A DNA stretch of 64,000 nt, from positions 3,224,001 through 3,288,000 of the forward strand of contig NC_007777.1 of the NCBI RefSeq assembly GCF_000013345.1, written 5' to 3'. A model generated the notes under the pieces. That model worked only from the letters and a program-made list of their open reading frames with translations, had not been told where the DNA came from and did not search any database. This document shows positions 12,764-27,217 of this stretch, one piece after another; the first letter of the stretch is position 1, and every line of letters starts with the position of its first letter. Position numbers and translations under genes: made by a program. The stretch comes from Frankia casuarinae (lineage in GTDB: Bacteria > Actinomycetota > Actinomycetes > Frankiales > Frankiaceae).

Positions 12764-12919
12764 CGCCCCTGAACCTAGGGTAAGACGGGCAGGACGCCAG
12801 TCAACCAGATCAGCCGCTTACACAGCGTCACCTCCTGCTGTCCGCCGGACACGATCAACACCAGGTCACACGTCATTGGCCCTTGTGGCCCTCGGCGCCG
12901 ATCCGCGCACCGGCTCAGC

Positions 12920-13882
12920 TCATGATTTCCGGGCTTGGTCTCGGCCCGTCCTCCTCCCGATGTGAAACTTTCTGAGGATGCCGGCGACCGACAGCTCGGT
13001 GTCGAGATACCACGTGCCGACGATTACCCCCCCGATGAGGACGACACCGAAACCGATCAGCCACGACAGGATGGTGAACACGACCCCGATCCCGCCATAG
13101 CTGCGCTCGTTCGCCACGATGGAAGCCGAGAATGCCAGCCGGCTGACGACACCCAGACCAGTCAGGCCGATCGTCGTGAACAGGGCTGTCGGCCACGAGT
13201 CCCGCCAGCTCATCCGGCCGATGGTGAGTACCCGGACCCCGACCCACAAGAAGAGCGCCAGGATCACGGTGGCTACCAGGCCGTAGCAGACCTGACCAGC
13301 CACGGTGCCGGTGAGCAGCGCCCCGAGACTCGTGGTAGCGACGAGAAAGAAGATCAATCCGCAGAGCCAGCCGACCTGGGCCAGTAGGCCGCGTAGCCCG
13401 AATGGCTTCAGTCTGAAGACCCGCACATAAATGGACTGGACGGACGCGGCCAGACTCAGTCCGCCAATTATCAGCCAGAGCACTCCCAGTACTGTCCAGC
13501 CGGTGAGGACGGTTCCGCTCCGCGGGGTAAAGAGTCGTTCCACGGCCATCGCCGCATCATGGCTCAACCCCATGCGCGCGATGATTATGTCCGCCGCACC
13601 GCCCTGCCGCAGTGGCGACAGCGCCGCCAGCGTGATGACAAAAGGAAAGAAAATCATCAGGATCATCGCGGCGAGATTCATCGCCCTGTTAATCAGATCC
13701 GCCTCACGTAGTCTGGACGCCAGGTCTCCTACCGGGGACTGCCCCGCACGCCCCCGGGCTGTCCCGACGCGCGCACAGAGCGTCCTGATCGGCCGCCACG
13801 GCGCGCCGCTGCGGTGAGCGCCAGCGCCGCCGGACGGCCGCGACGCAGGATTGTTATTACTCGTACGCCAGCTCCGGGGCAT
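12920..13882 (-). CDS. YihY/BrkB-family inner membrane protein
   Basis: A 320-residue protein with a basic ~60-residue N-terminus and about six transmembrane helices: MNLAAMILMIFFPFVITLAA, GWTVLGVLWLIIGGLSLAA, GWLCGLIFFLVATTSLGALL, CYGLVATVILALFLWVGV, SWPTALFTTIGLTGLGVV and GVVFTILSWLIGFGVVLIGG. This is the YihY/BrkB fold. Family members were once called RNase BN, wrongly; the true role is unknown. GGAGG lies five bases before ATG 13882. The gene is downstream of the GAP-family membrane gene on the same strand, 94 bases apart, possibly one transcript. Confidence 0.85.
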   Translation of the reverse strand: MPRSWRTSNNNPASRPSGGAGAHRSGAPWRPIRTLCARVGTARGRAGQSPVGDLASRLREADLINRAMNLAAMILMIFFPFVITLAALSPLRQGGAADIIIARMGLSHDAAMAVERLFTPRSGTVLTGWTVLGVLWLIIGGLSLAASVQSIYVRVFRLKPFGLRGLLAQVGWLCGLIFFLVATTSLGALLTGTVAGQVCYGLVATVILALFLWVGVRVLTIGRMSWRDSWPTALFTTIGLTGLGVVSRLAFSASIVANERSYGGIGVVFTILSWLIGFGVVLIGGVIVGTWYLDTELSVAGILRKFHIGRRTGRDQARKS

Positions 13883-13976
13883 GGCGTCCTCCCCACAGCA
13901 CCGGGTTCATCGCCGGATCCGCCGAATGCCCTGTGTGCGGCGCTCGCCCTCCGGGGCGGGGACTCAGGCAGCCGCT

Positions 13977-14609
13977 TCAGTCGATGATGAGGGCGATGAA
14001 AATGATGCAGACGATTATGTTGATGAGCCAGCTGTGAGTGTTCATCCAGTCTCGGACGCGCGGTGCGGCGACTTCTGCCCGTCTATGGAACAGTAGTCGG
14101 GCAAGCAGCGGCAGTGCCGCCACCGTAACGGTCAGCCCGATGAACGGGAGTGCTGCCGCATAGGACGCGTTGTTCTGCTGCAGGTGTATTCCAACCGTCA
14201 TCATAATCACGATGTCCGAGGGCATCAGCAGAATGACGAACAGTCCGACTTGGAACGCCTTCATCAGATCTGCCGCCATCAGCGTCGTCAGCCATTTCGG
14301 CGGCTCCACCGTTTCGCGCCGCACCCAGTTCTTCACGGCGGCGACTGCCAACAGGCCCACCAGTACGTACTGGATGATCTGGCCGGCCGAACCGTTACTC
14401 CTCGAACTTCCCAGGTCGACGGCGCTGTCCAGCAAGGCGGCGAGGCCCATCATGACGGCCACACCGGCCGCTGTCGCGGCCGCCACACCGGCCAGGAACC
14501 CCAGGGATACCCGCCCGGCTCGTGGCGTGGTAACGAAGATGATCGCCGACATGATCTGCGGTCCGATCATCATGGTGATTGCCAGCGGGAGAATCTGGAG
14601 ACCGTCCAT
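13977..14609 (-). CDS. GAP-family (LysE/Sap-like) membrane transporter
   Basis: A 210-residue protein with six predicted helices in a 3+3 arrangement: LPLAITMMIGPQIMSAIIFV, FLAGVAAATAAGVAVMMGLAA, IIQYVLVGLLAVAAV, AFQVGLFVILLMPSDIVIMM, ALPFIGLTVTVAALPLLAR and WLINIIVCIIFIALII. This matches the GAP/Sap family related to LysE exporters; mycobacterial Sap and Gap proteins help export cell-surface lipids. The start MDGLQIL is chosen because GGGGAG lies six bases upstream; an ATG eight codons earlier has no RBS. It follows the SHOCT remnant and precedes YihY. Confidence 0.8.
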   Translation of the reverse strand: MDGLQILPLAITMMIGPQIMSAIIFVTTPRAGRVSLGFLAGVAAATAAGVAVMMGLAALLDSAVDLGSSRSNGSAGQIIQYVLVGLLAVAAVKNWVRRETVEPPKWLTTLMAADLMKAFQVGLFVILLMPSDIVIMMTVGIHLQQNNASYAAALPFIGLTVTVAALPLLARLLFHRRAEVAAPRVRDWMNTHSWLINIIVCIIFIALIID

Positions 14610-14639
14610 GGATGCTCCCCACCGCTTGACCATGCTGAT

Positions 14640-14856
14640 TCACGCGAGACTCCTAGCCCTCTCGCGCTCGAACTCCTGGTCGTTGAGCAGTCCGCGGCGG
14701 TGCAGGTCTCCGAGCTTGGCCAGCTCGTCTGCAATAATGGTCGCGCGGGTCGCGGCGCGGATGTAGCCGCGGACCGCTTCCTCGCTCGCCGAGCCAACAG
14801 CCGGACCGGGTCCTCCCGGCCCCGCGCGCGTCGGGTGCGCCGATTACCACAGCCAT
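14640..14856 (-). pseudogene. SHOCT-domain small protein, apparently frameshifted
   Basis: The C-terminal half reads a clear SHOCT domain: ADELAKLGDLHRRGLLNDQE followed by Phe-Glu-Arg-Glu and a TGA at 14640-14642. That frame has no ATG, GTG or TTG back to an in-frame stop. A well-placed ATG (14854-14856, MAVVIGAPDARGAG) opens the neighbouring frame, so a single-base shift between ~14700 and 14830 would join them. SHOCT domains are short oligomerisation modules at the C-terminus of membrane or phage-associated proteins. A start at a rare ATT/ATC is the alternative. It lies 31 bases before the GAP-family gene. Confidence 0.5.
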
Positions 14857-15400
14857 TACCTACCGCCTGCTCGCCGCGTCAAACCCAGCATCACCCGAAA
14901 CTCACCCTCTCGTCTCGGCCCGATGCCGCAGACGGTGGCCGGGGGCACTAGGTGAGCAGGGGCACTGACGGAAGACGGTCGGCTTGGGGTGTCCGGCCGG
15001 ACTTGCGGGCCTTCGTCTTGGTACCGTCCCACTTCGCTTGAGTTGACCATGGTGTACCCACCAGTCGGCTAGGTCCAGCGTGGCGGCAGTCCGGAGCCGG
15101 TGCGCGGCTGGCTGCCCTACGACCTCTCCCACGACCCTCCCAACGTGCGATCAGCTGGACGATCGATGGTCATCGGCGGCCAAATGTCCACGCACGGCAC
15201 TCACCCGTCCGGGGGATCCTGGAAGTGGCGTCAACGGCACGTGGTGTGCTGGCAGGAAGAAGGCCGGCGCGGGTTACGCGTACGGACGACGGCGCCAGTG
15301 CGCGACAGGGGGACCGCCGGATGACACATCATCGAAGTCCACGAAGCCAACCTGACGGCTACCTTAATATATCGCGGTCATCCACAAGAGCGGTGACACC
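14857..15400. other. Intergenic region, no gene recognised
   Basis: This 544-base stretch precedes parA. Open frames here (15080-15355, 15100-15324) are Arg/Pro/Thr-rich and have no RBS or family features. The last ~40 bases before parA (ACCTTAATATATCGCGG) are AT-rich and probably contain its promoter. Confidence 0.4.
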
Positions 15401-16342
15401 GTGAAAGTGGTCTCCGTCATGAACTACAAGGGCGGAGTCGGAAAGACCACTCTGACGGCGAACATCGGCGCGGAGATCGCCCGCTGGGGAAAACGGGTTC
15501 TTCTGATCGATCTTGATCCGCAGGCGAGCCTCACCTTCTCCTTCTACCGGCCGGAGGACTGGCGGGCGCACCTCGCCGAGGGCCGGACCATCAAACAGTG
15601 GTTCGAAGCCTGGCGGATGGACGGGCCGGTGCCGGGACTCGAGGTACTCGTCACCGCCCCCACGGTGGCGAACTCCCGCATCGCGCATAACGGTGGCCGG
15701 CTCGACCTGATCGCGTCCCACCTTGCCCTCGGCGACGTCGAGATGGATCTCGCCGCGCGGTTGGGTGGGGCACAGATCCACCGGTCGACACGCCACTACT
15801 TCGACGTCTATCTGCGTCTCGCGGCCGGGCTTGCCACCCTGCCCGGGCGGCTCTACGATCTGGTGCTCATCGACTGCCCGCCGAACTTCGGCGTCATCAC
15901 GAGGTCCGCCGTGGCGGCCAGCGACCAGCTGCTCATCCCGGCCCGCCCGGACGAGCTGTCCACCCTCGGAATCGATCACCTGCAGTCCCGGCTGCGCCGG
16001 TTCACCTGGGAATTCAACCAGGTCGCTGATCTGCAGGCCGACCTCCGGCCGGCCGTGAAGAAACTGGAACCGATGATTCTGGGCGTCGTCTTCACGATGG
16101 TCCAGTACTACGGTGGTCAGCCCGTCTCGGCGCTGCGGCCCTACATAGCACAGACCAGAAGCCTCGGGCTGCCCGTCTTCGATGCGATGCTTCGGGAGAG
16201 CAACAAGCACTTCGCCGGCGCGGCCCGCGCCCAGCTCCCCGCCATTCTCACCGAGCAGCTCAGCCGGGAACTCGCCTGGGAACTGCAGAGCCTGGTCGAG
16301 GAGTTCCTCAAACGCATCCGGACGGCGAACCATGGCTCCTGA
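15401..16342 (+). CDS. ParA-family ATPase
   Basis: A 313-residue protein. MNYKGGVGKTTLTANIGAEI (residues 7-26) is the deviant Walker A of ParA/MinD ATPases with the signature Lys; LLIDLDPQASLTF is motif A' and DLVLIDCPPNFG the Walker B. It is somewhat longer than plasmid ParA and lacks an N-terminal DNA-binding domain, resembling the solitary actinobacterial ParA proteins that position cellular cargo. The GTG start has a poor RBS (AGCGGTGA). A small partner gene overlaps its end by eleven bases, so the two are probably co-translated. No parS-like or parB gene is nearby, arguing against a plasmid partition locus. Confidence 0.85.
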   Translation: MKVVSVMNYKGGVGKTTLTANIGAEIARWGKRVLLIDLDPQASLTFSFYRPEDWRAHLAEGRTIKQWFEAWRMDGPVPGLEVLVTAPTVANSRIAHNGGRLDLIASHLALGDVEMDLAARLGGAQIHRSTRHYFDVYLRLAAGLATLPGRLYDLVLIDCPPNFGVITRSAVAASDQLLIPARPDELSTLGIDHLQSRLRRFTWEFNQVADLQADLRPAVKKLEPMILGVVFTMVQYYGGQPVSALRPYIAQTRSLGLPVFDAMLRESNKHFAGAARAQLPAILTEQLSRELAWELQSLVEEFLKRIRTANHGS

Positions 16343-16871
16343 CAGTCGGCCCGCCAGCCACCCGGGTCGGGATGCGGCCCGTCTCGGGGCTGTTCTCCTG
16401 CGCCAGGTGTCCGATCTGCTCGACACCCTGGACGTCCGGCAGCTTGACGATCTCGTGGCGGGTCGGGCGCGGCTCGCGGTCGTCCCCACGCCCACAGCAG
16501 CGCCCACGCCCACAGCAGCGCCCACGCCCACAGCAGCGCCCACGCCCACAGCAGCGCCCACGCCCACGGCCACGGCAGCAGACCCGGGCGGTCGTGCCGC
16601 GGCGGACGGCTCCCGGCTCCCGGCGTCCGTGGACGTCGAGAAGCTGCACGCGACACTGGTCGCCGCCGCGAGCCGGGAGGAAGCCCGGGAGCACCTGGCT
16701 GCCCTGGGCCGGATTCCGGTCCCGCAGCTACGGGCCCTGGCGGGCGCCCTGGGTGTCGACGGTGTCGGCGGCAGGGATCCGAAAGCCACCGTGATCCGAA
16801 AGATCGTGGACGGGACCATCGGTTTCCGGCTCAGCTCCCGGGCGATGCTGGCCGGGGAATCCGAACTGTAG
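16332..16871 (+). CDS. Small ParA-associated protein with PTPTAA repeats
   Basis: A 179-residue protein starting at an ATG inside the parA end. Residues ~12-46 are helical (LLRQVSDLLDTLDVRQLDDLV); ~52-82 are PTPTAA tandem repeats; ~95-179 form a helical C-terminal domain (VEKLHATLVAAASREEAREHL ... QLRALAGALGV ... IRKIVDGTIGFRLSSRAMLA) resembling SAP/Rho-N-like motifs often seen in ParA partners. The likely role is as cargo adaptor or regulator of the ParA; this follows from the gene overlap and not from a known activity. Confidence 0.75.
   Translation: MAPDSRPASHPGRDAARLGAVLLRQVSDLLDTLDVRQLDDLVAGRARLAVVPTPTAAPTPTAAPTPTAAPTPTAAPTPTATAADPGGRAAADGSRLPASVDVEKLHATLVAAASREEAREHLAALGRIPVPQLRALAGALGVDGVGGRDPKATVIRKIVDGTIGFRLSSRAMLAGESEL
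16485..16574. repeat. 18-bp in-frame tandem repeat, five copies
   Basis: CCCACGCCCACAGCAGCG four exact copies and a fifth diverged copy, encoding the PTPTAA linker of the ParA partner. Confidence 0.9.
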
Positions 16872-16931
16872 AGCCGCGTTCTCCGACCGTTCTCCGGCCG
16901 GTGGAGCCGTCGGCTGGCCCGCTCCCGCCGG

Positions 16932-17483
16932 TCATGCCGCACCGAGCAGGAGGCCGAATCCGGTCATCAACACGGCGACGGCGAGTACCAGCGAGGTCAC
17001 GAGATTACGCATGGTGACTCGGCGGGGAGCGCCGTCGAGGTCCGGCTGCGCCTCGGGCTCGCGCGGTGGAATCCGCAGGGCGAGCACGATCGGGTGAAAC
17101 GGCGAGACGCGGTTCGGCGGCCAGGCGACCGCCCGCAGATCGCGCCGTTTGAAGGGGGCGTGACTCGCGCATCCGGTGAGCCAGCCGTTGACCGGGGTCT
17201 CGCAGATGCCGTCGTCGGTCCGGTAGGCCCGGCAGAGCGTCGGCCAACGGAATCCCAACATCACGGTGATCACGAGCAGGGCCACCGGCAGCGCGATCCA
17301 CGTGCCCCGCAGGGTGAGCCACAGCCCGGCGGCACCGAAGGCGAGATAGCAGGCGAGATGGACATGTTTGCGTTCCCGTCGGCTCCTCGTCCGTGAAGCG
17401 GCCCGGCGGGACCGGGTCGGTTGCCGGCGGCGGGCGGACGTCCGGCCCGATCCCGACGAAGATCTCCTGCGCGGCGCTGCCAT
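16932..17483 (-). CDS. Membrane protein with Cys-containing loop
   Basis: A 183-residue protein with a strongly basic N-terminus (~1-38), two helices (HLACYLAFGAAGLWLTLRG, ALPVALLVITVMLGF), a conserved-looking loop (LCRAYRTDDGICETPVNGWL then TGCASHAPFKRRD) with three Cys, and a C-terminal helix (LVTSLVLAVAVLMTGFGLLL). Function not recognised; related proteins of unknown role occur in actinobacteria. The start is ATG 17481-17483, six bases after AGGAGG; an ATG two codons upstream overlaps the RBS. It is convergent with the ParA pair. Confidence 0.7.
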   Translation of the reverse strand: MAAPRRRSSSGSGRTSARRRQPTRSRRAASRTRSRRERKHVHLACYLAFGAAGLWLTLRGTWIALPVALLVITVMLGFRWPTLCRAYRTDDGICETPVNGWLTGCASHAPFKRRDLRAVAWPPNRVSPFHPIVLALRIPPREPEAQPDLDGAPRRVTMRNLVTSLVLAVAVLMTGFGLLLGAA

Positions 17484-17987
17484 GACCATCCTCCTGTCTG
17501 CCCAGGTGCACGGGTGGGATGCGCCGCGGCGTCACGACAGATGCGTGGCCGTCCGTGCATCTGCGCCGACGGTCACGCCCCGCCCCTCGGCTGGCGTCGC
17601 TCCGCGATGGTTCTAGCACAGCTTGATGCCTAATTTAGCGCTTATCCTTTGTTTGCCATCACTTGCCACCAAACGCCAATAATAGGCGTATGATGTGTCC
17701 GTATAGCAGTCATGTTTTCAGTCATGCTTCTTCGCGACAGATCTCGATCAAGGCTTTGGCGGATCCCGCCGGCCTGTCGATCAGTACGGTGAAGGCGCGG
17801 TCGAGATCGGGCAGCGGATACCGGGGATGATCAGACTGGCCGCGACGAGCCTCGGCCTGGTCCCCACCGGCCTCCTTGTCCGACGGGACACGCGCGGGCG
17901 TCCGGGCCGGCCCTGGACCTTCGGCCGCACTGACGCGCCGCCGTTGACACCTGGAGCCGCTCCAGGAAGCTCCTGCTCCTGGCCGGG
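17484..17987. other. Intergenic region with a possible gene fragment
   Basis: Bases ~17620-17710 are AT-rich (TAATTTAGCGCTTATCC, CCAATAATAGGCGTATGATG) and look like promoter DNA. On the minus strand ~17722-17840 reads RYPLPDLDRAFTVLIDRP and ends EICREEA-stop, which resembles the C-terminus of a zinc-type alcohol dehydrogenase; no upstream body of such a gene is present, so at most it is a remnant. Confidence 0.3.
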
Positions 17988-18383
17988 TTACTCGTCCATG
18001 GCACGGAGCAGGCTCGCGGGCAGCGATCGATCCGGGCCGGCTCCCGTAGTCCATCGGGAGCCCCATCGGCCGAGTTCCATCAGGATCGGCGCGAGATCCC
18101 GGCCCGCCGACGTCAGTTCGTATTCCGAACGAGGTGGACGTGGCTGATAAAGCCTGCGTTGCAGGATGCCTCGATCGACGAGCCGGTCGAGGCGCCGAGT
18201 GAGGGTGTGATCGGAGATCTTCAGACGGGTTCGGAAGTCGTCGTAGCGCCGAGCGCCGCCGAACGCCTCTCGGATGATCAGCAGGGACCAGTGATCGCCG
18301 ATCAGCCCGAGCGCGCGAGCGGCCGGGCAGTCGGACTCGTCGTGCTGGTCAAGCACCTGGCCAGTGTATCTGTTGACTTCCAT
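17988..18383 (-). CDS. HxlR-family transcriptional regulator
   Basis: A 131-residue winged-helix protein with the HxlR pattern: DCPAARALGLIGDHWSLLII, REAFGGARRYDDFR, ISDHTLTRRLDRLVDRGI and YELTSAGRDLAPILMELGRW. HxlR proteins bind DNA as dimers and often sense thiol or quinone stress through an N-terminal Cys; here a Cys precedes Pro-Ala-Ala (residue ~19). It is divergent from an MFS pump gene, and a perfect palindrome (18375-18420) spans its start codon, suggesting autorepression and control of the pump. Confidence 0.85.
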   Translation of the reverse strand: MEVNRYTGQVLDQHDESDCPAARALGLIGDHWSLLIIREAFGGARRYDDFRTRLKISDHTLTRRLDRLVDRGILQRRLYQPRPPRSEYELTSAGRDLAPILMELGRWGSRWTTGAGPDRSLPASLLRAMDE

Positions 18384-18420
18384 TTCGGAAGCATCTAGGA
18401 TCCTTTCCGAAATGGAAGTC
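18375..18420. promoter_or_regulatory. 16-bp inverted repeat, candidate HxlR operator
   Basis: GACTTCCATTTCGGAA and TTCCGAAATGGAAGTC are exact reverse complements separated by 14 bases. The left arm covers the hxlR start codon and the right arm lies just before the MFS start, so a bound repressor would block both divergent genes. Confidence 0.65.
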
Positions 18421-18444
18421 GGTCTCGGGGGAGTGGAGGCGCGT

Positions 18445-19941
18445 ATGTCGAGGTCCGCTCAGCCGAAGGAGTCTGCGGCATCACCACTGCTGCTGCCGGT
18501 CGTGTGCCTCGGCCAGTTCCTGGTCGTGTTCAGCCTGTCCAGCGTGAATGTCGCGCTGCCCAGCCTGGCAGCCGATCTTCAGATGAGCCGCGAGACCCAG
18601 CCCTACACGGTCACGGCCTACGGGATAGCCCTGGGCAGCCTGCTCCTGCTGGGTGGCAGGGCTGGCGATCTACTCGGCCGACGGCGACTGTTCCGGCTAG
18701 GCACGGGGGTCTTCGCGGTCGGCACCGTGGTGTGCACGCTCGCCAACGTGACCGGCGTGCTGCTCGCTGGGCGGGCCCTGGAGGGGCTCGGTGCGGCCAT
18801 GCTCGCCCCGGCCGCGCTGGGGACGATCAACGCGATCTACCCGCAAGGGCCGAGCAGAAACAAGGCGCTCGGGGTGTTCGGTGCGGTGTCCAGCGCGGCG
18901 GCCGGGGTGGGCGTCTTGGCGGGCGGGGTCCTCACCGACGGGCCGGGATGGCGGTGGGCGTTCGCGATCAAAATTCCCTTCTGTCTACTCCTGCTCGCCG
19001 TGGTCGGAAGGATCATGCCGGAAACCCGTGACACCCGTTCTCACCACGGCTTCGACATCGCCGGCGCGCTCACCGCGACGGGGTCGATGTTCTCGCTGGT
19101 CGTGGCCATCACACAGGCGGAGCAGCGCGGTTTCACCAGCCCGGCGATCCTTGCTCTGTTCGGATCAGCCGCCGTTCTTCTGATCGCCTTCATCGTGATC
19201 GAGAGCCGCAGCGACGACCCGCTCATGCCGTTGGCCCTCTTCCGCCGGCGTGGTCTCAGCGTCGCCAACGGCGCGACCCTGCTCGTGTGGGCCAGCTTCG
19301 GGTCGGCTTTCCTCCTGGTGGCCCTGTATGTGCAGCAGGTACTCGGCTACAGCCCGATGAAGGCCGGGCTGACATTCGTGCCGATGGCAACCGCGGCCGC
19401 GCTCGCGGCCAACGTCGCCCAGGCGACAGCGAGTCGTTCCGCGCGCGGTCCCAAGCCCGCGCTGCTCGTCGGCCTTGTCCTCCTCACTGTCGGCGTGGCC
19501 CTCCTGTCCCGGGGCGACGCCGACACCAGGTACACGGCGGTGCTGCTGCCGGCGCTCGTGCTGTGCGGCGCCGGTCTCGCGACCTCCCTCACCGCGCTCA
19601 ACGTGGCCGCCTTCAGCGGCTCCAACAGCGACGACTCCGGGGTTGAGGCAGGACTCCTGAGCACCTCCCAGGAGATCGGCGCGGCCCTCGGCGTCTCGAT
19701 TCTCTCGACGGTGTCGGCCCGCGTCATCTCCGATCATCTCGCAGCTCATCCCGGAGATCCGACCGCGATGCTCAGCGGCACGGTCGATGCCTTTCAGGTG
19801 TCCTTCGTCGTCGCGGCGGGCATGGCTGCCGGCGCCTTCCTGCTTTCCCTGATCGCCCTCTCGACGCGGGTTGATATCCCCCCGGCCAGCGTGTCGGAAA
19901 ACCCCCTCGCGGAACCAGCCTCGATAATGCCCTCAAGGTGA
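18445..19941 (+). CDS. MFS drug efflux pump, DHA2 (14-helix) type
   Basis: A 498-residue transporter. Residues ~15-480 give about 14 hydrophobic segments; motif A appears as GGRAGDLLGRRRLF, and LAGRALEGLGAAMLAPAALG is the conserved TM4-5 region of the EmrB/QacA (DHA2) group. Such pumps export lipophilic drugs in exchange for protons. The start ATG 18445 (MSRSAQP) has GGAGG six bases upstream; an earlier ATG (18412) lies inside the palindrome and is less likely. Control by the divergent HxlR regulator is probable. It may provide self-resistance for the adjacent isonitrile cluster; inference from position. Confidence 0.85.
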   Translation: MSRSAQPKESAASPLLLPVVCLGQFLVVFSLSSVNVALPSLAADLQMSRETQPYTVTAYGIALGSLLLLGGRAGDLLGRRRLFRLGTGVFAVGTVVCTLANVTGVLLAGRALEGLGAAMLAPAALGTINAIYPQGPSRNKALGVFGAVSSAAAGVGVLAGGVLTDGPGWRWAFAIKIPFCLLLLAVVGRIMPETRDTRSHHGFDIAGALTATGSMFSLVVAITQAEQRGFTSPAILALFGSAAVLLIAFIVIESRSDDPLMPLALFRRRGLSVANGATLLVWASFGSAFLLVALYVQQVLGYSPMKAGLTFVPMATAAALAANVAQATASRSARGPKPALLVGLVLLTVGVALLSRGDADTRYTAVLLPALVLCGAGLATSLTALNVAAFSGSNSDDSGVEAGLLSTSQEIGAALGVSILSTVSARVISDHLAAHPGDPTAMLSGTVDAFQVSFVVAAGMAAGAFLLSLIALSTRVDIPPASVSENPLAEPASIMPSR

Positions 19942-20402
19942 CACGGTCGCCTTAGACGGGACTTCCGAAGATCGTCGCGCGGGTTCCGCCCGCCTTCTCA
20001 TCGGATCGAACTCGGCCGCGGCCATGCGGCTGCTCCTGCCAGGCCTCCGCTCCCCTCGTCCCGCTCGCGGCCTCCTCCGCTGGGCCGTGCCGTTTCCTCC
20101 TCCCGCAGCACATCCGGCGTCAGTGGCGCTGGCCAGTGATTTCTTTCTGGCCAGCCCGTCAGTACCCGCGCTCCTCAATGAATCGCTCCTTGAGGAGCAG
20201 GTCCGCGACCCCGTTTCCCACCCCGTGGGACGGGGTTGTTGTCGTGTTCGGTGGGGTCAGGGGTGATCCCGGCCCGCCGGTAGTGCCCGCTGATATCTCC
20301 CTCCAGTCTGTCGCATAGGAGACAGCGGAGTCCTTGTTGCTAAATTGCTACGTATCGCCCAGAGTGGTGATGTCCAGTTGTTCAGGAAGAAAGGATTGGC
20401 TG
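19942..20402. other. Intergenic region between the MFS and rhodanese genes
   Basis: No gene recognised. Holds an inverted repeat CTCCTCA/TGAGGAG (20171-20197) and the terminator-like hairpin at 20209-20243. The last 100 bases are less GC-rich and probably hold the promoter of the rhodanese gene. Confidence 0.45.
20209..20243 (+). terminator. Hairpin followed by a T/G-rich tract
   Basis: CCCCGT-TT-CCCAC, a three-base loop, then GTGGGA-CGGGG and TTGTTGTCG. The stem is nearly perfect and is followed by T-rich sequence, as in an intrinsic terminator; it would end transcription from the MFS gene before the isonitrile cluster. Confidence 0.45.
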
Positions 20403-20825
20403 ATGGTAGTGCTTGACCAACGGCTGCTCGAGAGTTGTCGACGCTACGTCGACGACATGCCGCCGCGCTTCAACTACATGACTTCCCCCGAGCTGGCCAA
20501 AGCCCTGGAGTCCCATCCGGACGCATACTTCGTCCTTGACAACCGCACCCCCGAGGCGTATGCGGCGGGCCATATACCGGGTGCCGTGAACATGTGGTTC
20601 AAGGACGTGCTGTCCGACAGCAACCTCGCTCTTCTCCCTCGGGACAAGACAATCGTCATCGTATGCTGGGTGGGCCATACGGCCAGTCAGCTCGTCGCCC
20701 TGCTCGGTCTGCTGGGTTTCACCGTCGCAGGTCTTCAGTACGGCATGGGTGAAAGCCCGGTGCCCGATTCCCCCCGGGCCGGCTGGCGCGATCTGGGCCT
20801 GCCGCTGGAAAAGAAAATTGGCTAG
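20403..20825 (+). CDS. Rhodanese-domain protein
   Basis: A 140-residue single rhodanese domain. YFVLDNRTPEAYAAGHIPGA (residues 42-61) is the signature of the fold, and VIVCWVGHTAS (86-94) holds the active Cys88 in a loop of Trp-Val-Gly-His-Thr, where classical rhodaneses have a CRxGxR-type loop. It should carry persulfide or act as a thiol-binding domain. AAAGGA lies seven bases before ATG 20403. It is 221 bases upstream of the isonitrile synthase on the same strand. Isonitrile synthases do not need sulfur transfer, so participation in the pathway is uncertain; detoxification of cyanide or isonitrile is one idea. Confidence 0.8.
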   Translation: MVVLDQRLLESCRRYVDDMPPRFNYMTSPELAKALESHPDAYFVLDNRTPEAYAAGHIPGAVNMWFKDVLSDSNLALLPRDKTIVIVCWVGHTASQLVALLGLLGFTVAGLQYGMGESPVPDSPRAGWRDLGLPLEKKIG

Positions 20826-21018
20826 CGAATCGCTCACCTGAGCTGACGCAACGCCTATCTGCCCTCACCGCAGGTCAAGACTTCCAAGAACCCGCTTTGA
20901 ATCTTGTCTTGACCGCGAACGGCGCTACACCATGGGATCGAATCCCGGTACTCGGCGTGCCGACCGGTCACAGCCCTCTTTGTCAGGCTGGAATACCGGA
21001 CCGGAGTACTTCTAAAAC

Positions 21019-21037
21019 AGACTCTAAGAGGGAGTCT
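21019..21037. promoter_or_regulatory. Short inverted repeat before the isonitrile synthase
   Basis: AGACTC and GAGTCT separated by seven bases (TAAGAGG), ending ten bases before ATG 21047. It lies over the RBS region (GGGAG at 21030-21034), so it could be an operator or a translational hairpin. Short, hence only moderately supported. Confidence 0.35.
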
Positions 21038-21046
21038 TAATCAGCC

Positions 21047-22015
21047 ATGCCCAACGAAACCGCAACAGAGATCATCGATCTGCTGTTTCAGTTCCGGCGG
21101 CTCTCCGATCCGACGGAGGTCTGCTCGGCCCAGCCCTGCGAGCTCTGCTTCGACATCCATCGCCCAAAGATCGAGTACTGGATCAACCAGAACGAGCCGA
21201 TCCACTTCGTGATCCTCGCTTTCCCGGCCAAGTCACCCAACAGGCAGAAGGTCCTCGGCTCGCTGCCGGATCTCGCCGAGCGCATCGCGCTCGACTTTCT
21301 GCGCTCGATGTGTGAGCACATCGGCCATTTCTATGAGCCCGGAGCCAGGATCACGGTCTGCTCGGACGGGCACGTGTTCGGGGATCTGATCAGTGTCTCC
21401 GACGAGGCCATCTCGTCCTACCGCAGCGACCTGGAGGCGCTGCTGGTCGACATCAGAGCACACAATATCGATCTCTACTCACTGGACGACGCGTTCGGCG
21501 CCGGTGACTTCACCGAGCTGCGTAGGAAACTGGAGGAAAACTATGCCGCAACGGTGGCGGAACTGCGCCAACAGATCGCCACGAGCCCAGCCACGAAGAC
21601 GCAGTTCAACGGCATCCACCGTTTCGTGTTCGAGGATCTGCTGGTGCTGCGCCCGGAGACCAGCCGCACTCAACTCCGGCTCGCCAGCAAGGATCTCGCC
21701 TACCAGATCGTCCGCCGCAGCAACGCCTGGAGCCGACTCGTCGCCGAGCAGTTCCCGTCCGCCGTCCGCCTGTCGATCCACCCCCAGCCCTGCCATTCCG
21801 AGAAAATCGGCATCCATATGATCAGAACCAGGGACAACTGGCTCACTCCCTGGCATGGCGTCGCCATGGACGACGGCAACAGTGTCACGCTGATAAAGCG
21901 CAGCACCGCCGAAAAGCTGAACGCGTCGGTGGTCTGGCGCAATGGACGACCGAGTCACTTCGTCGCTCCGCATCTCATGCGGACGGATTCGAGGGTGAAG
22001 GAGACCGTCTCGTGA
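21047..22015 (+). CDS. isnA: Isonitrile synthase (IsnA/PvcA/DIT1 family)
   Basis: A 322-residue protein. HFVILAFPAKSPNRQKVLG (53-71), LPDLAERIALDFL (73-85), YEPGARITVCSDGHVFGDL (96-114) and the HPQPCHSEKIG segment are the conserved blocks of L-tyrosine/L-tryptophan isonitrile synthases. These enzymes convert the amino group of an aromatic amino acid to an isonitrile using a carbon from ribulose 5-phosphate. Length is typical. The stop overlaps the start of the next gene (GTGA at 22012-22015), a pairing known from pvcA-pvcB and isnA-isnB. The RBS GGGAG is rather far (12 bases) from ATG and partly inside an inverted repeat. Tyr versus Trp cannot be told by eye. Confidence 0.92.
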   Translation: MPNETATEIIDLLFQFRRLSDPTEVCSAQPCELCFDIHRPKIEYWINQNEPIHFVILAFPAKSPNRQKVLGSLPDLAERIALDFLRSMCEHIGHFYEPGARITVCSDGHVFGDLISVSDEAISSYRSDLEALLVDIRAHNIDLYSLDDAFGAGDFTELRRKLEENYAATVAELRQQIATSPATKTQFNGIHRFVFEDLLVLRPETSRTQLRLASKDLAYQIVRRSNAWSRLVAEQFPSAVRLSIHPQPCHSEKIGIHMIRTRDNWLTPWHGVAMDDGNSVTLIKRSTAEKLNASVVWRNGRPSHFVAPHLMRTDSRVKETVS

Positions 22016-22824
22016 GTGCCGGGGCACTGGTCGACGCCAGCTCGGCGCCGCGGCGTTCGCTGCATCCGTTCGGACTGTTGATCGAATCATCCAGTGACAC
22101 GGATCTGACCGCCGTGCCACCCGAGGAGTTGACCCGGTTCGTCGCGGATTCGAAGCTGCTGGTGCTACGAGGTTTCCAATCTCCTTCGACCACCGATCTC
22201 GTCGCCTACTGCCGGCGAATGGGCGAGATCCTGACCTGGGACTTCGGGGAGGTGCTGGACCTGACGGTGCACGAGGACCCACAGAACTACCTGTTCACCA
22301 CGGGTCCGGTGCCCTTCCACTGGGACGGCGCGTTCGCCCGGCTCACGCCACGCTTCATCGTGTTCCGCTGCCTACGCGCTCCCGACCCGGATAGCGGCGG
22401 GGAGACGACTTTCTGCGACACCGCCCGCATTATTTCCGCCGCGCCTGCGCACCTGCGTGACACCTGGGCCGGCGTCCGGATCGACTACCAGACCGAAAAG
22501 ATCAAGCACTACGGCGGGCACATCGTGCAGGACCTCGTGGTGCCCCATGCCGTGACGGGTGTGCCGACTCTTCGTTTTGCCGAGGCGCTCGACCCAGCCG
22601 AATATCTCAATCCGCTGTTCCTCGACATCCACGGCGTCTCACGGAATGATCGCGAGGACTTTCTCGACGATCTGTCGGCCCGGCTCTACGACCCGTCCGT
22701 CAGCTACGCGCACGCATGGCGTTCCGGCGATGTCGTGATCGCGGACAACCATGCGCTGCTACACGGTCGACGGTCTTACTCACTGGCCTCCTCGCGGCGA
22801 CTCCAACGCATTCATGTGATCTGA
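22012..22824 (+). CDS. isnB: PvcB/IsnB-like Fe(II)/2-oxoglutarate oxygenase
   Basis: A 270-residue TauD-family protein. HWDG (His103, Asp105) and HALLHGRR (His251) supply the 2-His-1-carboxylate iron triad, and Arg residues around 262-265 the 2-oxoglutarate contact. PvcB and IsnB act on amino-acid isonitriles and cause oxidative decarboxylation to the vinyl isonitrile, or desaturation with the carboxylate kept. It begins at a GTG overlapping the isnA stop, so the two are translationally coupled. Twenty-seven bases separate it from the halogenase-like gene. The function within this cluster is well supported by the pair arrangement; the exact product outcome is not. Confidence 0.9.
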   Translation: MSAGALVDASSAPRRSLHPFGLLIESSSDTDLTAVPPEELTRFVADSKLLVLRGFQSPSTTDLVAYCRRMGEILTWDFGEVLDLTVHEDPQNYLFTTGPVPFHWDGAFARLTPRFIVFRCLRAPDPDSGGETTFCDTARIISAAPAHLRDTWAGVRIDYQTEKIKHYGGHIVQDLVVPHAVTGVPTLRFAEALDPAEYLNPLFLDIHGVSRNDREDFLDDLSARLYDPSVSYAHAWRSGDVVIADNHALLHGRRSYSLASSRRLQRIHVI

Positions 22825-22851
22825 GCAAAGATTCGAGGAAATGGAGAAGAC

Positions 22852-24708
22852 ATGCGGGATCATTACGACGTTATTATCGCCGGCGGCGGGCCGGCGGGCT
22901 CTACACTGGCCGCGCTGCTCGCCCGCACGTCGGACCTGAAAGTAGCGATCTTCGAGAAGGATGAGTTCCCGCGCGAGCACATCGGCGAGTCGTTCGCGCA
23001 CCCGTTGATCCCGGTGCTGGCAGAGAGCGGAGCGCTCGCGAAGGTGCTGGCCAGCAACTGCTGGGTAAAGAAATTTGGCGGTATCTACAGCTGGGCGCGG
23101 CAGGGTCCGAGCCGGGCGTTCTTCGACCACGCGAACTGGGCGGTGGACGGGGTACACCGATGGGCACTGCACGTCAACCGTTCAGAGTTCGACCAGATCC
23201 TGCTGGAACACGCCCGGGACCTCGGAGTCGACGTCACCACCGGGATGGCCGTCACCGACTTCGCCGCGGCCGCCAACGGCTGTCAGGTGACGCTCGCCGA
23301 CGGCACCGCCGTGTCCGGCGCGTACTTCGTCGATGCCTCCGGTCGCCAGCAGAGCCTGGTCACCAAAAAGCCTCGCGAATGGTTGTCCGGCTACCGGAAC
23401 ATCGCGATCTGGCAGCACTACCTGGGCGGCCTGCCGGCCCAGGGGCTCGACGGCGACTGGAACATCTTCCGGGAGAAGAACCTCTCGCCGATCGGTTGCT
23501 TCGCGTTTCCCGACGGCTGGTGCTGGTACATCCCCGTCCCCAGGATCGTGAACGGGGAGCGGGTGCTCACGCACTCGATCGGCATCGTGACGAGCCCGGA
23601 GGTGCTGAAGGAACCCGGGAAGGACTTCACGGACTCCGAGGTCTTTCTGCGCACCGTCCGCGGCGTGCCGCGGCTGGCCGACCTGGTGGCCGAGGTGACG
23701 CCGATCTCCGACCAGATGATGACGGTCACCAACTACTCCCGGGTCAATGAGCGCTTCGCCGACCTCGACCGGCACTGGATCCTGATCGGCGATGCCTCCT
23801 ACTTCGTGGACCCCCTCTTCTCGTCCGGGGTCGCGTTCGCGGCCAACCAGGCGGCCTCGGCGGCGCTGCTGCTGCGCACCACGCTGCGCGCCGAACTCTC
23901 CCCGGGTCTGGTGAGAGATCTGTGGCAGGACTACGACCACGAGTGGCACGGAATGGCCGAGGTGTTCGCGCTCTCGATTGATCAGTGGTATCACATGATC
24001 GGCGCGGACAACCCGGGCAGCGCATACTGGCACCGGCGCAATTCGAGTCCGCATCTGGACATGCCCGATCGGTCCTTCGACGCGCTGCTCAACACGGCGT
24101 TCACCCCCGACCTGCTCCTGATCATGACGCGCGGCACCGGCCGAATGTCCGACCTGGCGATCGACGGTCCGTACCAGCAGGCTCGCGCGCACGTGATGCT
24201 GACGGAGCCGGAACCGGACGCCGTGCTGGTCGCCGCTCCCGGAGTCCGGATGCGGGCCGGCGTGGCGCTGGATGTCCCCGGCTTCAAAGCGGTGCTCCCA
24301 CCGGCCGACCTCGAACTGGACACGCCCGCCGCGGTACGGGCCGCCGTCGCCGAGTACTGGACCGATCCGGTGGCGGCCGAGGCGAACGGCGGCCTCGGCG
24401 TGCCTTCTCCGACCGCCTCCCCAGTACCGTGCCACCGTTTCGAGTTCGATTCCGACGCACTCGTCGATTCCGGCTCAGGCGCGACGGGGTTTTCGGTGCG
24501 CGGGGTGGACAGTCACGACGGCGCACCGCAGCTGTGGGAGATACTCAGCCGCGGTCCGGTCGTCTACGGCGAGCTCGGCTCGCGGCTCGCCCCCGGTCAG
24601 CGGGTGCTGCTGCAGCGGCTGATAAAGGCCGGAATGGTCACCGTCAAGACCGCGGCGAGGCAGACCACGCCGGGGACTGAAGCCGCCGAGGTCACCCTCG
24701 CGGACTGA
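22852..24708 (+). CDS. Flavin-dependent halogenase-like monooxygenase
   Basis: A 618-residue protein. GGGPAGST (11-18) binds FAD; FPREHIGES (~40-48) is typical of flavin halogenases; KKFGGIYSW near residue 70-80 places a Lys as in phenol halogenases; GWCWYIPVP (~221) fits the W-x-W-x-I-P halogenase motif; GDASYFVDPLFSSGV (~312) closes the FAD site. Residues beyond ~430 form a C-terminal extension ending in a winged-helix-like segment (LWEILSRGPVVYGELGSRL ... LLQRLIKAGMV) not usual for the family. GGAG lies six bases before ATG 22852. A chlorinated or brominated aryl isonitrile is the likely outcome if active; a flavin reductase is needed and none is in the window. Confidence 0.85.
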   Translation: MRDHYDVIIAGGGPAGSTLAALLARTSDLKVAIFEKDEFPREHIGESFAHPLIPVLAESGALAKVLASNCWVKKFGGIYSWARQGPSRAFFDHANWAVDGVHRWALHVNRSEFDQILLEHARDLGVDVTTGMAVTDFAAAANGCQVTLADGTAVSGAYFVDASGRQQSLVTKKPREWLSGYRNIAIWQHYLGGLPAQGLDGDWNIFREKNLSPIGCFAFPDGWCWYIPVPRIVNGERVLTHSIGIVTSPEVLKEPGKDFTDSEVFLRTVRGVPRLADLVAEVTPISDQMMTVTNYSRVNERFADLDRHWILIGDASYFVDPLFSSGVAFAANQAASAALLLRTTLRAELSPGLVRDLWQDYDHEWHGMAEVFALSIDQWYHMIGADNPGSAYWHRRNSSPHLDMPDRSFDALLNTAFTPDLLLIMTRGTGRMSDLAIDGPYQQARAHVMLTEPEPDAVLVAAPGVRMRAGVALDVPGFKAVLPPADLELDTPAAVRAAVAEYWTDPVAAEANGGLGVPSPTASPVPCHRFEFDSDALVDSGSGATGFSVRGVDSHDGAPQLWEILSRGPVVYGELGSRLAPGQRVLLQRLIKAGMVTVKTAARQTTPGTEAAEVTLAD

Positions 24709-24738
24709 CCGAAGCGGCGGCCGGCCAGCCGGGCGCGG

Positions 24739-24771
24739 GCCGGGCCGGTCGCTCACGCCGGCCCGGCCCGG
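24739..24771. terminator. Perfect 12-bp GC-rich inverted repeat between convergent genes
   Basis: GGGCCGGGCCGG, nine-base loop, CCGGCCCGGCCC. It fills most of the 66-base gap between the halogenase stop and the MFS stop, so it is a good candidate for a bidirectional terminator. Confidence 0.65.
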
Positions 24772-24774
24772 GTC

Positions 24775-26277
24775 TCAGCCGGCGTGCGCGGGGACGACCT
24801 CGACGTTGGTAGTCGACTCCCGCCCGGCCCGGATGAGCACGACGATCACCACCGCCGCGAGCGCGATGAGGATGGCGCCCCACAGGAACGCCGTGGTGTA
24901 GCCCTCGATCTGCGCCTGGTCGAGAAGCGCCTTCCCACCCCGCCCGTGATCGGCCAGGTAGTTGGTGACGGCCGTCGCGTAGACGGTGTTGAGCAACGCG
25001 GTTCCCAGCGCCCCGCCGATCTGCTGGGTCGTGTTGACCAGCGCGCTGGCCACCCCCGCGTCGTGCGGGGCGACCCCGATCAGCGCGAGGTTCGACAGGG
25101 GCACGAACGAGAAGCCCATGCCGATGCTGATCAGCAGCTCGGAGGGCAGGATGTGCACGACGTAGCTCGAATCCGTCCCAACCCCGAGGAGCAGCGCCAT
25201 CCCGACCGCCGCGAGCGTCGTGCCGGTGCCGGCCAGCACCCGGGGTCCGACGCGCGGCAGGAACTGGCTGGCAAGCCCCGCGGAGACGATGATCCCGCCG
25301 CTGAACGGCAGGAACGCGAAGCCGGTCTTCAGGGCGCTGTAGCCGAGCGTCTGCTGGAAGTAGTACGTCAGGAACAGGAACATCGCGAACAGGCCGGCCC
25401 CGGTCAGCAGCGAGGCCAGGAACGAGCCGCCGCGGTTGCGCTCCCACGGCACCCGCAGCGGCAGCAGCGGCGCGCTGGTGCGGGACTCGACGACGACGAA
25501 GGCCACGAGCAGCACAGCCGCACCAACCAGCAGCCCGATGGTGCGGGCGTCGCCCCAGCCATCCTCGGCGGCCACGGTGAAGCCGTAGACCAGGGCCACC
25601 AGGCCCGCGGTCACCGTCACCGCGCCGGGCAGGTCGTAGCGGGCCTCGCCCTCCGCCCGGCTCTCGCGCACCACCGGCAGCGCGAGTACCGCGGTGATGA
25701 TCGCGATCGGCACGTTCACCAGCAGGCACCACCGCCAGGAGGCGTACTCGGTGAGCAGGCCGCCGACGATGAGACCGATCGCGGCGCCACCGCCGGAGAT
25801 CGCTCCGTACACGCCGAACGCCTTGGCCCGCTCGTGGCTTTCGGTGAAGGCGACGGTGATCAGCGACAGCGCGGCCGGCGCGAGCAGGGCCGCGAACGCG
25901 CCCTGCAGCGCCCGCGCTGCGAACAGCAGCCCGGCGTTCGGGGCCAGGCCGCCCAGCGCCGAGGCCAGCGCGAAACCGAGGAGTCCCCAGCTGAAGGCCC
26001 GCTTGCGCCCCAGGTAGTCGGCGACGCGCCCGCCGAGCAGCAGCAGACCGCCGAAGGCCACGGTGTACGCGGTGATGATCCACTGCCGGTTCGCGGTGGA
26101 GATGTCGAGATCGGCCTGCGCGTGCGGGATCGCGATGTTCATGATCGCGGCGTCGAGGACGACCATGAGCTGCGCGACAGCGATGATCCAGAGCGCGAGC
26201 CAGCGCCGTGGATCGGGCGAGCCGTCAGCCGCGTCCACCGGACGGTCCTCCGCCTGGTGGTCGAGGGTTGTGGTCAC
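24775..26277 (-). CDS. MFS exporter, EmrB/QacA (DHA2) type
   Basis: A 500-residue, ~14-helix transporter. LWIIAVAQLMVVLDAAIMNI is TM1; GGRVADYLGRKRAFSWGLLG is motif A, and GAAIGLIVGGLLTEYASWRW motif C. The start is GTG 26275-26277 with AGGAG seven bases upstream; sequence further 5' is repetitive and not protein-like. It is convergent with the halogenase gene and downstream of a TetR gene on the same strand, so it most likely exports the isonitrile product or a related toxic compound, under TetR control. Substrate not shown by sequence. Confidence 0.85.
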   Translation of the reverse strand: MTTTLDHQAEDRPVDAADGSPDPRRWLALWIIAVAQLMVVLDAAIMNIAIPHAQADLDISTANRQWIITAYTVAFGGLLLLGGRVADYLGRKRAFSWGLLGFALASALGGLAPNAGLLFAARALQGAFAALLAPAALSLITVAFTESHERAKAFGVYGAISGGGAAIGLIVGGLLTEYASWRWCLLVNVPIAIITAVLALPVVRESRAEGEARYDLPGAVTVTAGLVALVYGFTVAAEDGWGDARTIGLLVGAAVLLVAFVVVESRTSAPLLPLRVPWERNRGGSFLASLLTGAGLFAMFLFLTYYFQQTLGYSALKTGFAFLPFSGGIIVSAGLASQFLPRVGPRVLAGTGTTLAAVGMALLLGVGTDSSYVVHILPSELLISIGMGFSFVPLSNLALIGVAPHDAGVASALVNTTQQIGGALGTALLNTVYATAVTNYLADHGRGGKALLDQAQIEGYTTAFLWGAILIALAAVVIVVLIRAGRESTTNVEVVPAHAG

Positions 26278-26355
26278 AGGGAAGCTCCTAGCCGGTCGGA
26301 CCTGAAACGGGGACGAACGAACGCCACGAGTTCGGGCGAGGCGACCCGGTGCGGT

Positions 26356-26400
26356 GGGGATGGTGCCGATGGGGATGGTGCCGATGGGGATGGTGCCGAT
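26356..26400. repeat. 15-bp tandem repeat, three copies
   Basis: GGGGATGGTGCCGAT three times, followed at 26455-26492 by GGGACA/GTGGCA hexamer repeats. All lie in the 244-base gap between the TetR and MFS genes. Confidence 0.85.
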
Positions 26401-26521
26401 GGACGGCGCCCCCGGGACCGGGCGGTCCGTGGCGGCGTCGGTGACGCGGCAGTGGCAGGGACAGGGACAGTGGCAGTGGCAGTGGCAGGGACATCGAACA
26501 GGAGTTCGAGCAGGGAATAGC

Positions 26522-27217
26522 TCAGGCGTTCGAGTTGACCCCGGACGGGGGTGTTTCGGGCCGGAGTGTCGTTCCGGGCCGGCCAGCCAGCAACGGCATG
26601 AGCACGTCGTCCACCATATGATCGACGAACGCATCGTCGAGCGGCTCGCCGGTGACGAGCAGGCGACAGAAAATCATCGCCATGACGATCTCCATAATCA
26701 CGTCGAAATCGGCCGACACAGAGATCTCCCCCCGTTGCGAGGCCCGAGCGAACATGCAACGGCCGATCTTCGCTTTGTTCTGCAGGATGTTGGCCTGCAC
26801 GACCGCGGCCAGCCGCGGGGACTCGCTCGCGGCCCGGAGCACGCCGATGAGCAGCGCACCGTCGGGACCGGTAATCGTGTCGATCATGAGGTGCACCTCG
26901 GCGGCCAGGTCGTCCCGCAGGCACCCGGTGTCAGCCGGAACGCGGTCGCCGGGACCATGCCGGCGCAGGGCCTCCACGACCATCTCGTCCTTGCACGACC
27001 ATCGGCGGTAGATCGTCGCCTTGCTGGCTCGGGCCCGGGCCGCGACGGCGACCATGCTCATCCGCTCATACCCGACCTCGACGAGCAGTTCCAGCGCGGC
27101 GTCCAGGATCGCCCGTTCCCGGGCGTCGTCCCGGGGCCGGCCACGCCCGGCGCCACTCGGCGGGGAAATCGGTTTTCGCCCTTCCGTCTCGGACGCTTCT
27201 CCGGAGTCGACGCGCAT
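26522..27217 (-). CDS. TetR/AcrR-family transcriptional regulator
   Basis: A 231-residue protein. The N-terminal helix-turn-helix spans ~33-80 (RERAILDAALELLVEVGYER, then MSMVAVAARARASKATIYRR and WSCKDEMVVEAL); the C-terminal ligand domain is of the TetR_C_11/AcrR type (GPDGALLIGVLRAASESPRL ... DFDVIMEIVMAMIFCRLLVT). It is upstream of the MFS exporter on the same strand, so repression of exporter and self is likely. Two palindromes 24 and 51 bases before its ATG are candidate operators. The ATG has no clear RBS, so the true start could differ by a few codons. Confidence 0.88.
   Translation of the reverse strand: MRVDSGEASETEGRKPISPPSGAGRGRPRDDARERAILDAALELLVEVGYERMSMVAVAARARASKATIYRRWSCKDEMVVEALRRHGPGDRVPADTGCLRDDLAAEVHLMIDTITGPDGALLIGVLRAASESPRLAAVVQANILQNKAKIGRCMFARASQRGEISVSADFDVIMEIVMAMIFCRLLVTGEPLDDAFVDHMVDDVLMPLLAGRPGTTLRPETPPSGVNSNA

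Follow-up and report, generated by a model that had tools for sequence, protein, structure and literature searches.

A 64,000-nucleotide stretch of Frankia casuarinae DNA (NCBI RefSeq assembly GCF_000013345.1, contig NC_007777.1, positions 3,224,001 to 3,288,000 of the forward strand; hereafter the window, in whose numbering all coordinates are given) contains the genes isnA and isnB followed by a gene for a flavin-dependent halogenase-type enzyme (FDH). Judged from the sequence, isnA-isnB-FDH is a real isonitrile operon with a halogenase-type flavin enzyme, which is recurrent and has been acquired as part of an island in this genome of Frankia, a soil bacterium and nitrogen-fixing plant symbiont. 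We lean, without great assurance, towards the reading that the island makes a halogenated isonitrile-derived metabolite by means of IsnA, IsnB, FDH and perhaps a rhodanese route. The product of the three enzymes would probably be a chlorinated, and probably indolic, vinyl isonitrile.

The preliminary description of this DNA had reported an isnA-isnB pair overlapping by GTGA with a flavin enzyme gene 27 bases further on, an arrangement that is confirmed from the sequence. The first gene, isnA (21047-22015, plus strand), encodes a protein of 322 amino acids which belongs to the DIT1_PvcA family of isonitrile synthases, scoring 269.8 bits with the PF05141 profile (cut-off 26.4) and matching PDB entries 9dhm, 9dh4 and 3e59 with E-values of 2e-76 to 2e-75. 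The overlap, at 22012-22015, leads into isnB (22012-22824, plus strand), whose 270-residue product is an iron- and 2-oxoglutarate-dependent (Fe/2OG) isonitrile desaturase of the Ala-Phe-Ala pocket type; it reaches 136.1 bits with the TauD profile (cut-off 27) and matches PIsnB (7tcl, E 4e-57) and PvcB (3eat, E 9e-46). After the isnB stop codon and the 27-base gap, the ATG at 22852 opens the FDH gene (22852-24708, plus strand), encoding 618 amino acids with a C-terminal extension. By profile, PDB matches, alignment and structural model, this enzyme is of the CndH/CmlS kind, and its score with the Trp_halogenase profile (76.5 bits, cut-off 21) places it in that family.

The motifs by which FDH had been recognised in the preliminary description are all present, FPREHIGES at residues 39-47, KKFGG with its lysine at 73-77 and W-x-W-x-I-P as WCWYIP at 223-228. 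In an alignment of the Frankia copy with 19 relatives, K74, W223, W225, I227, P228, F318, P321, S324 and G326 are invariant (20/20), and the protein aligns over the lysine, WxWxIP and FxxPxxSxG with FasV, Mpy16, PltA and CmlS; we take the catalytic lysine and FxxPxxSxG to be flavin halogenase motifs. All seven PDB sequence matches at E < 1e-26 carry a molecule name that marks them as halogenases or, in the case of CmlS and ChlB4, an entry title that does so, the next match being 3nix (E 8.5e-19), an uncharacterised flavoprotein and not a halogenase. An AlphaFold model built from 20 sequences (mean predicted local distance difference test score 81.9, predicted template modelling score 0.86) gave CmlS, FasV, RadH, CndH and PltA as the first Foldseek matches, while VIA-align placed CndH (Z 35.6 over 391 residues), FasV (33.2), Bmp2 (31.2) and PltA (30.9) on top, with 3nix at 30.6 and the tryptophan halogenases AbeH and PrnA lower, at 28.4 and 27.1. 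The longest alignment shown by VIA-align was that to CmlS, which covers 461 residues, spans model residues 3-603 and runs into the C-terminal part. The nearest matches of FDH are CndH, FasV, PltA and CmlS, not the tryptophan halogenases, and the reading of an isonitrile operon with a halogenase-type flavin enzyme in it is supported.

Several observations weigh against this assignment. The CmlS equivalog NF033113 gives FDH 143.7 bits against a cut-off of 900, and the hydroxylase QhpG is close behind in the NCBIfam scan (124 bits vs 144 for CmlS). In VIA-align, QhpG reaches Z 29.6 over 412 residues with a range extending to residue 598, and so outranks the tryptophan halogenases; for hydroxybenzoate hydroxylases, Z goes up to 27.2. 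A grouping with non-halogenating monooxygenases had been named in advance as the result that would overturn the halogenase proposal; as far as these ranks go, FDH shows no such grouping, since halogenases occupy the top places, with QhpG close behind, the comparison with references being made by profile and fold rank in place of a tree with reference halogenases. In a tree of the FDH relatives themselves, the isnAB-linked copies are not gathered in a single clade and the Frankia copy has no clear place. This tree leaves out two duplicates (L081 of locus L023, L102 of locus L028), includes four sequences absent from the 20-sequence alignment (L082, L085, L086 and L100) and contains at least two rows, L021 and L086, that run past the stop near the C-terminus. 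Taken together, both the sequence and the predicted fold of FDH resemble those of halogenases, and we infer halogenation itself from this resemblance.

The second line of evidence concerns the desaturase. The equivalents of H101, D103, H250, R261 and R265 are kept in 28 of 28 aligned IsnB rows, as expected of Fe/2OG isonitrile desaturases, R261 presumably belonging to the arginine set that serves 2-oxoglutarate and the carboxylate. Metal-site or carboxylate roles for residues 101, 103, 250 and 265 are given in PMC9467999, which also proposes a selectivity rule for isonitrile desaturases based on residues 107 and 188. Aligned to PIsnB and PvcB, the Frankia enzyme has the Ala-Phe-Ala pocket and Ala188; with alanine at both rule positions it has neither the Lys/Arg107 and Asn/His188 of the PIsnB type nor the Leu107 and Cys188 of the PvcB type and, by its sequence, is outside both published selectivity classes. 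Single swaps at the rule residues did not alter the product, according to the same paper, and conversion of Met105-Tyr106-Lys107 of PIsnB to Ala-Phe-Ala abolished stabilisation by tyrosine isonitrile (PMC9467999). This loss fits the view that an Ala-Phe-Ala pocket is not made for tyrosine isonitrile.

All 11 IsnBs adjacent to an FDH carry HWDG-[A/V]-F-A together with Ala188 (Ala-Phe-Ala in ten, Val-Phe-Ala in one), and IsnBs of the same clade located elsewhere in FDH genomes have Ala-Phe-Ala in five of six cases, the sixth (L109) being Ala-Phe-Val. IsnBs of the other type carry Met-Tyr-X and Asn188 in 7/7, X being Lys or Arg in six and Met in one. The Ala-Phe-Val sister type was found in three Streptomyces genomes without FDH and in S. 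zagrosensis (L109), an FDH genome that breaks a clean split between the two pockets. Within a sample of 392 Streptomyces genomes, Ala-Phe-Ala occurs only in FDH genomes (5/5) and Ala-Phe-Val only in genomes without FDH (3/3), counts drawn from related copies that are not independent events. In the stretches read around the four Ala-Phe-Val isnA-isnB clusters (L139, L031, L140 and L109), StyA-like genes are present in all four, a two-domain rhodanese lies near isnAB in three (not in L109), and only L139 and L109 gave a cupin match; the StyA-like match in L139 scores 302 bits, under the model cut-off of 550. StyA-like enzymes beside such an IsnB fit an aryl-vinyl product, and from their gene content these clusters are likely an aryl-vinyl isothiocyanate or epoxide family.

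The operon is not confined to Frankia. A scan of a genome collection with FDH returned ten relatives with 51-60% identity, and the isnA-isnB-FDH order was found in Streptomyces sp. DH12, S. roseolilacinus, Micromonospora matsumotoense and Allokutzneria, while S. zagrosensis has isnB-FDH with an apparent isnA remnant. For these comparisons, locus genes came from a rough gene caller of our own and family names from Pfam and NCBIfam scans. Two FDH searches yielded 21 distinct loci (L041 being the L023 genome again), in eight of which isnB is the next gene upstream; this becomes 11 of 24 when the Frankia locus, L030 and L100, all three from outside those searches, are added. In the Streptomyces sample, FDH (E < 1e-100) is present in nine of the 392 genomes, in 12 copies, three of them with isnAB upstream. 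PF05141 was matched in 9/9 of these FDH genomes vs 74/383 others (Fisher 6e-7), and Ala-Phe-type IsnB in 5/9 vs 3/383 (Fisher 9e-8). The three-gene order in other families and the co-occurrence in Streptomyces argue for an association beyond chance.

The association has its exceptions, which count against a strict coupling of FDH to isonitriles. Adjacent isnAB is lacking in 13 of the 24 FDH loci, and no Ala-Phe-type IsnB was detected at E 1e-60 in four of the nine FDH genomes of the Streptomyces sample. PF05141 was matched in 18 of 20 genomes searched because of FDH loci, a set in which G360 and G384 had been selected through isnA, G384 lacks FDH at the cut-off, G422 and G764 are apparently the same genome and the L021 genome is not included. 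The FDH genomes of Streptosporangium and Planobispora gave no PF05141 match, which suggests that the substrate of FDH is not always an isonitrile. The FDH orthologues of these two Streptosporangiaceae (L025 and L027) have in their vicinity a polyketide synthase-aminotransferase gene as well as genes for a carboxyltransferase and an enoyl reductase, assigned by family scans in L025 and by similarity in L027.

Other neighbours were seen beside these genes. A HAD-family hydrolase gene lies directly upstream of isnA in L021, L022, L026 and L079 (the L021 copy was scanned) and its product possibly deals with a sugar-phosphate by-product of IsnA. Locus L086 (7768-13884) has isnA-isnB-FDH with a UbiA prenyltransferase gene after FDH and a P450 gene upstream of isnA, a gene set that would amount to hapalindole-like logic in Streptomyces; L100 is a near-identical locus in another genome, the families having been scanned in L086 only. 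Three loci, L106 of S. buecherae, L107 of S. philanthi and L108, have an Ala-Phe-Ala IsnB with an Orf2-type aromatic prenyltransferase as the very next gene, confirmed as to family in L106 and L107 only, and these pairs stand away from IsnA and FDH. Prenyltransferases beside IsnB (L106, L107) and FDH (L086) suggest that IsnAB products may feed several routes.

In Frankia casuarinae, the operon lies in an island (16872-24757, borders approximate) delimited by synteny with other Frankia genomes and containing genes for an HxlR regulator, an exporter of the major facilitator superfamily (MFS) and a rhodanese besides isnA, isnB and FDH. In five other Frankia genomes, a ParA-like gene (15401-16342), together with the sequence that continues to about 16,850-16,871, adjoins the side carrying an exporter and a TetR gene, which picks up again at 24,724-24,775, and no isonitrile genes were found between the two sides in the five regions read; in one such genome (L125), some 140 bases separate the two sides. 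About 7.9 kb has been gained in this genome or lost in the other Frankia genomes. Borders of a mobile element were considered and rejected, comparison of the two border zones having given no direct repeats of at least 8 bases, and inverted matches of 8-9 bases only. PF05141 is matched once in this genome and in two of 13 Frankia genomes, its own included, the other match being partial and divergent.

The convergent exporter and TetR that the preliminary description had joined to the cluster (24775-27217, minus strand, the MFS exporter starting at about 26277) are located as described and lie outside the unit. The exporter is present in 13/13 Frankia genomes (100% in its own, 81-87% in the other 12) and TetR accompanies it in 5/5 regions read, a synteny that makes both part of the genus backbone and rules them out as cluster members. 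The same description began its feature at 20403, the start of the rhodanese gene, and mentioned neither that gene nor the island HxlR and second MFS exporter (17988-19941). The HxlR-type regulator (17988-18383, minus strand) scores 83.3 bits with PF01638, and the island exporter (18445-19941, plus strand), of the DHA2/EmrB kind, 145.8 bits with PF07690 and 198 bits with TIGR00711, under the cut-off of 230; its start was chosen, the longest open reading frame beginning at 18364. Between the two genes, a 16-bp perfect inverted repeat (18375-18390 and 18405-18420) is a likely, predicted operator. The isnA leader holds one exact copy of the palindrome AGACTC-N7-GAGTCT (21019-21037), which adjoins the likely ribosome-binding site and for which any role is a guess; with two mismatches allowed, its frequency equals that in shuffled sequence. 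A role as a binding site for HxlR was considered and rejected, for a search of the window with one arm of the HxlR/exporter repeat (up to three mismatches) returned nothing beyond the two arms themselves. Beside the ParA-like gene, about 11,900-15,400 of the window (open reading frames 12920-13882 and 13977-14633) had no match in the five other Frankia regions, so that the locus seems to have been changed twice, and the open reading frame after the ParA-like gene contains a run of short in-frame, PTAA-like repeats at about 16,420-16,520.

The observed gene content, gene order, island borders, family membership, motifs and recurrence are what we infer the following chemistry from. IsnA would convert an aromatic amino acid into an isonitrile, as shown for its family. 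IsnB, of the Ala-Phe-Ala type, would desaturate this compound and most probably decarboxylate it, giving an aryl vinyl isonitrile, an electron-rich product that FDH would halogenate, most likely at the isonitrile-bearing vinyl carbon, the ring being a less likely site. Sulfur may then be transferred by the rhodanese to the isonitrile carbon, the isothiocyanate being either the product or a means of self-protection, while HxlR would serve sensing and the island MFS exporter export. Indole is favoured over phenol because of the changed IsnB pocket and the company kept by the relatives.

An alternative, which we consider unlikely, is that FDH acts like CndH, which carries out ring halogenation in chondrochloren, and chlorinates the ring of a tyrosine-derived isonitrile to 3-chloro-4-hydroxystyryl isonitrile. 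CndH is indeed the best VIA-align match, the flavin adenine dinucleotide (FAD) oxidase whose gene follows FDH at other loci belongs to the VAO/PCMH class (S. buecherae copy), and the cassette proposed for the indole metabolite streptochlorin is said, in PMC10127220, to hold a chondrochloren-type decarboxylase. The sole curated NCBIfam match of IsnA is likewise the tyrosine model, the L-tyrosine isonitrile synthase PvcA equivalog NF045653, but its 283 bits are less than half of the cut-off of 600; moreover, PIsnB, the tyrosine enzyme, has a Met-Tyr-Lys pocket that IsnB lacks, and the streptochlorin link points to indole. It is distinctly improbable that FDH is no halogenase but a monooxygenase or epoxidase working on the vinyl isonitrile, a reading which draws on the nearness of QhpG in sequence and fold, on the Z-score of the uncharacterised flavoprotein 3nix and on the StyA-like monooxygenases of related isnAB clusters. 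Against it stand the invariance of the lysine, WxWxIP and FxxPxxSxG, the first ranks held by halogenases in the PDB sequence, Foldseek and VIA-align comparisons, and the loci L028 (Allokutzneria) and L078, which have a StyA-like gene besides FDH.

The end product turns on the rhodanese. Its gene (20403-20825, plus strand) encodes a single-domain protein of 140 amino acids (PF00581, 50.9 bits), a candidate isonitrile sulfurtransferase, in which the cysteine of CWVGHTAS, read directly, is taken as the active-loop residue. A Burkholderia rhodanese turns an isonitrile into the isothiocyanate sinapigladioside, as told in an article on sponge isothiocyanates (PMC12112954), and by analogy an isothiocyanate is a plausible final product of the Frankia island, although its chances are less than even. 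That the rhodanese merely serves cyanide or thiosulfate housekeeping, the end product being the free halogenated isonitrile, is a sizeable possibility short of an even chance and is compatible with the other readings. Two points that weigh against a sulfur step speak for it, namely the 221 bases between the rhodanese gene and isnA and the lack of a homologue at E 1e-3 in the other isnAB-FDH loci compared; on the other side, the gene belongs to the acquired island and not to the genus backbone, and a different rhodanese is found near sister isnAB clusters. Nothing further came from a plasmid collection, in which 13 records are related to IsnA and 9 to the rhodanese.

Streptochlorin is an indole-chlorooxazole, and S. 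philanthi is presumably one of its makers. The genes proposed for it in S. buecherae ID71268 encode a halogenase, a Na/H transporter, a chondrochloren-type decarboxylase and a glucose/sorbose dehydrogenase (GSDH), according to PMC10127220. S. buecherae AC541 (L023) and S. philanthi (L024), whose FDH orthologues are 56% identical to that of Frankia, have FDH-antiporter-FAD oxidase-GSDH in an order like the published proposal, and from its position the FAD oxidase, VAO/PCMH class in the S. buecherae copy, would be the 'decarboxylase' of that paper. An FAD oxidase follows FDH, directly or past an antiporter, in 10 of the 24 loci, and both cassette genomes encode IsnA and an Ala-Phe-Ala IsnB away from FDH. 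The word isonitrile does not occur in the text of PMC10127220, and no paper joining streptochlorin and isonitrile was found in the open-access literature searched.

These observations lead to a broader proposal, rather doubtful as a whole, of an as yet unrecognised actinobacterial family of isonitrile clusters whose flavin halogenase would chlorinate the isonitrile-bearing vinyl carbon. Where an FAD oxidase is present, a halohydrin would be oxidised to an alpha-chloro-beta-keto isonitrile, whose spontaneous ring closure would yield a 4-chloro-5-aryloxazole, the isonitrile carbon becoming C2 of the oxazole, as a route to streptochlorin; Frankia would end with the rhodanese and a chlorinated indolyl isothiocyanate. 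The halohydrin, oxidation and ring closure are drawn from general isonitrile chemistry. There is only a slim chance that the family makes streptochlorin-like 5-aryl-4-chlorooxazoles and that the Frankia copy is a partial route. The cassette order in S. buecherae AC541 and S. philanthi, the isnA and isnB genes elsewhere in both genomes and the recurrent FAD oxidase favour it. However, no FAD oxidase orthologue was found in the Frankia genome (a 34% partial match only), FDH is the sole cassette member at the Frankia locus (antiporter and GSDH were not sought genome-wide), the sole IsnB found in S. philanthi adjoins an aromatic prenyltransferase, so that IsnA and IsnB may serve another product, and the streptochlorin cluster is itself a proposal. 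For Frankia, the reading that we favour remains the halogenated vinyl isonitrile, with the rhodanese in the acquired island pointing past it to an isothiocyanate.

If this is correct, isonitrile biosynthesis and flavin halogenation are joined in actinobacteria, a third, testable type of IsnB comes to light and a plant symbiont gains a candidate reactive small molecule. The broader proposal would, if true, provide a concrete genetic hypothesis for streptochlorin, whose proposed cluster has no isonitrile genes, and an isonitrile-based origin of a natural oxazole.

The preliminary description knew of no characterised case of this combination from actinobacteria, and no report of an actinobacterial isnA-isnB-flavin halogenase cluster was found in the open-access literature, most subscription papers being outside this coverage. 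Among known systems, the paerucumarin pvc cluster of Pseudomonas has homologues of both genes (PvcA and PvcB), but the Frankia IsnB is without the PvcB-type Leu and Cys, and the pvc flavin enzyme PvcC is of the HpaB class, unlike FDH. The rhabduscin-type isnA-isnB with PIsnB (PMC9467999) shares the synthase and desaturase pair and the metal, 2-oxoglutarate and carboxylate residues, whereas Met-Tyr-Lys with Asn is replaced in Frankia by Ala-Phe-Ala with Ala188 and a halogenase-type gene is added directly after. The proposed streptochlorin cassette of S. buecherae ID71268 (PMC10127220) has a related halogenase (identity measured to the AC541 copy) in the company of Na/H antiporter, FAD oxidase and GSDH genes, and isnAB does not adjoin it. 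The nearest precedent found is welH, present in some cyanobacterial welwitindolinone (wel) clusters and absent from the hpi and amb clusters (PMC4236562). There too, isonitrile synthase genes and a flavin halogenase gene stand together, but the wel clusters are cyanobacterial and include a prenyltransferase, and WelH gave no halogenated product in its authors' assay (PMC4236562). The sinapigladioside system of Burkholderia gladioli, as described in PMC12112954, combines an isonitrile route with a rhodanese, and CndH and CmlS share the fold of FDH at 25-26% identity over the aligned part while having other gene partners.

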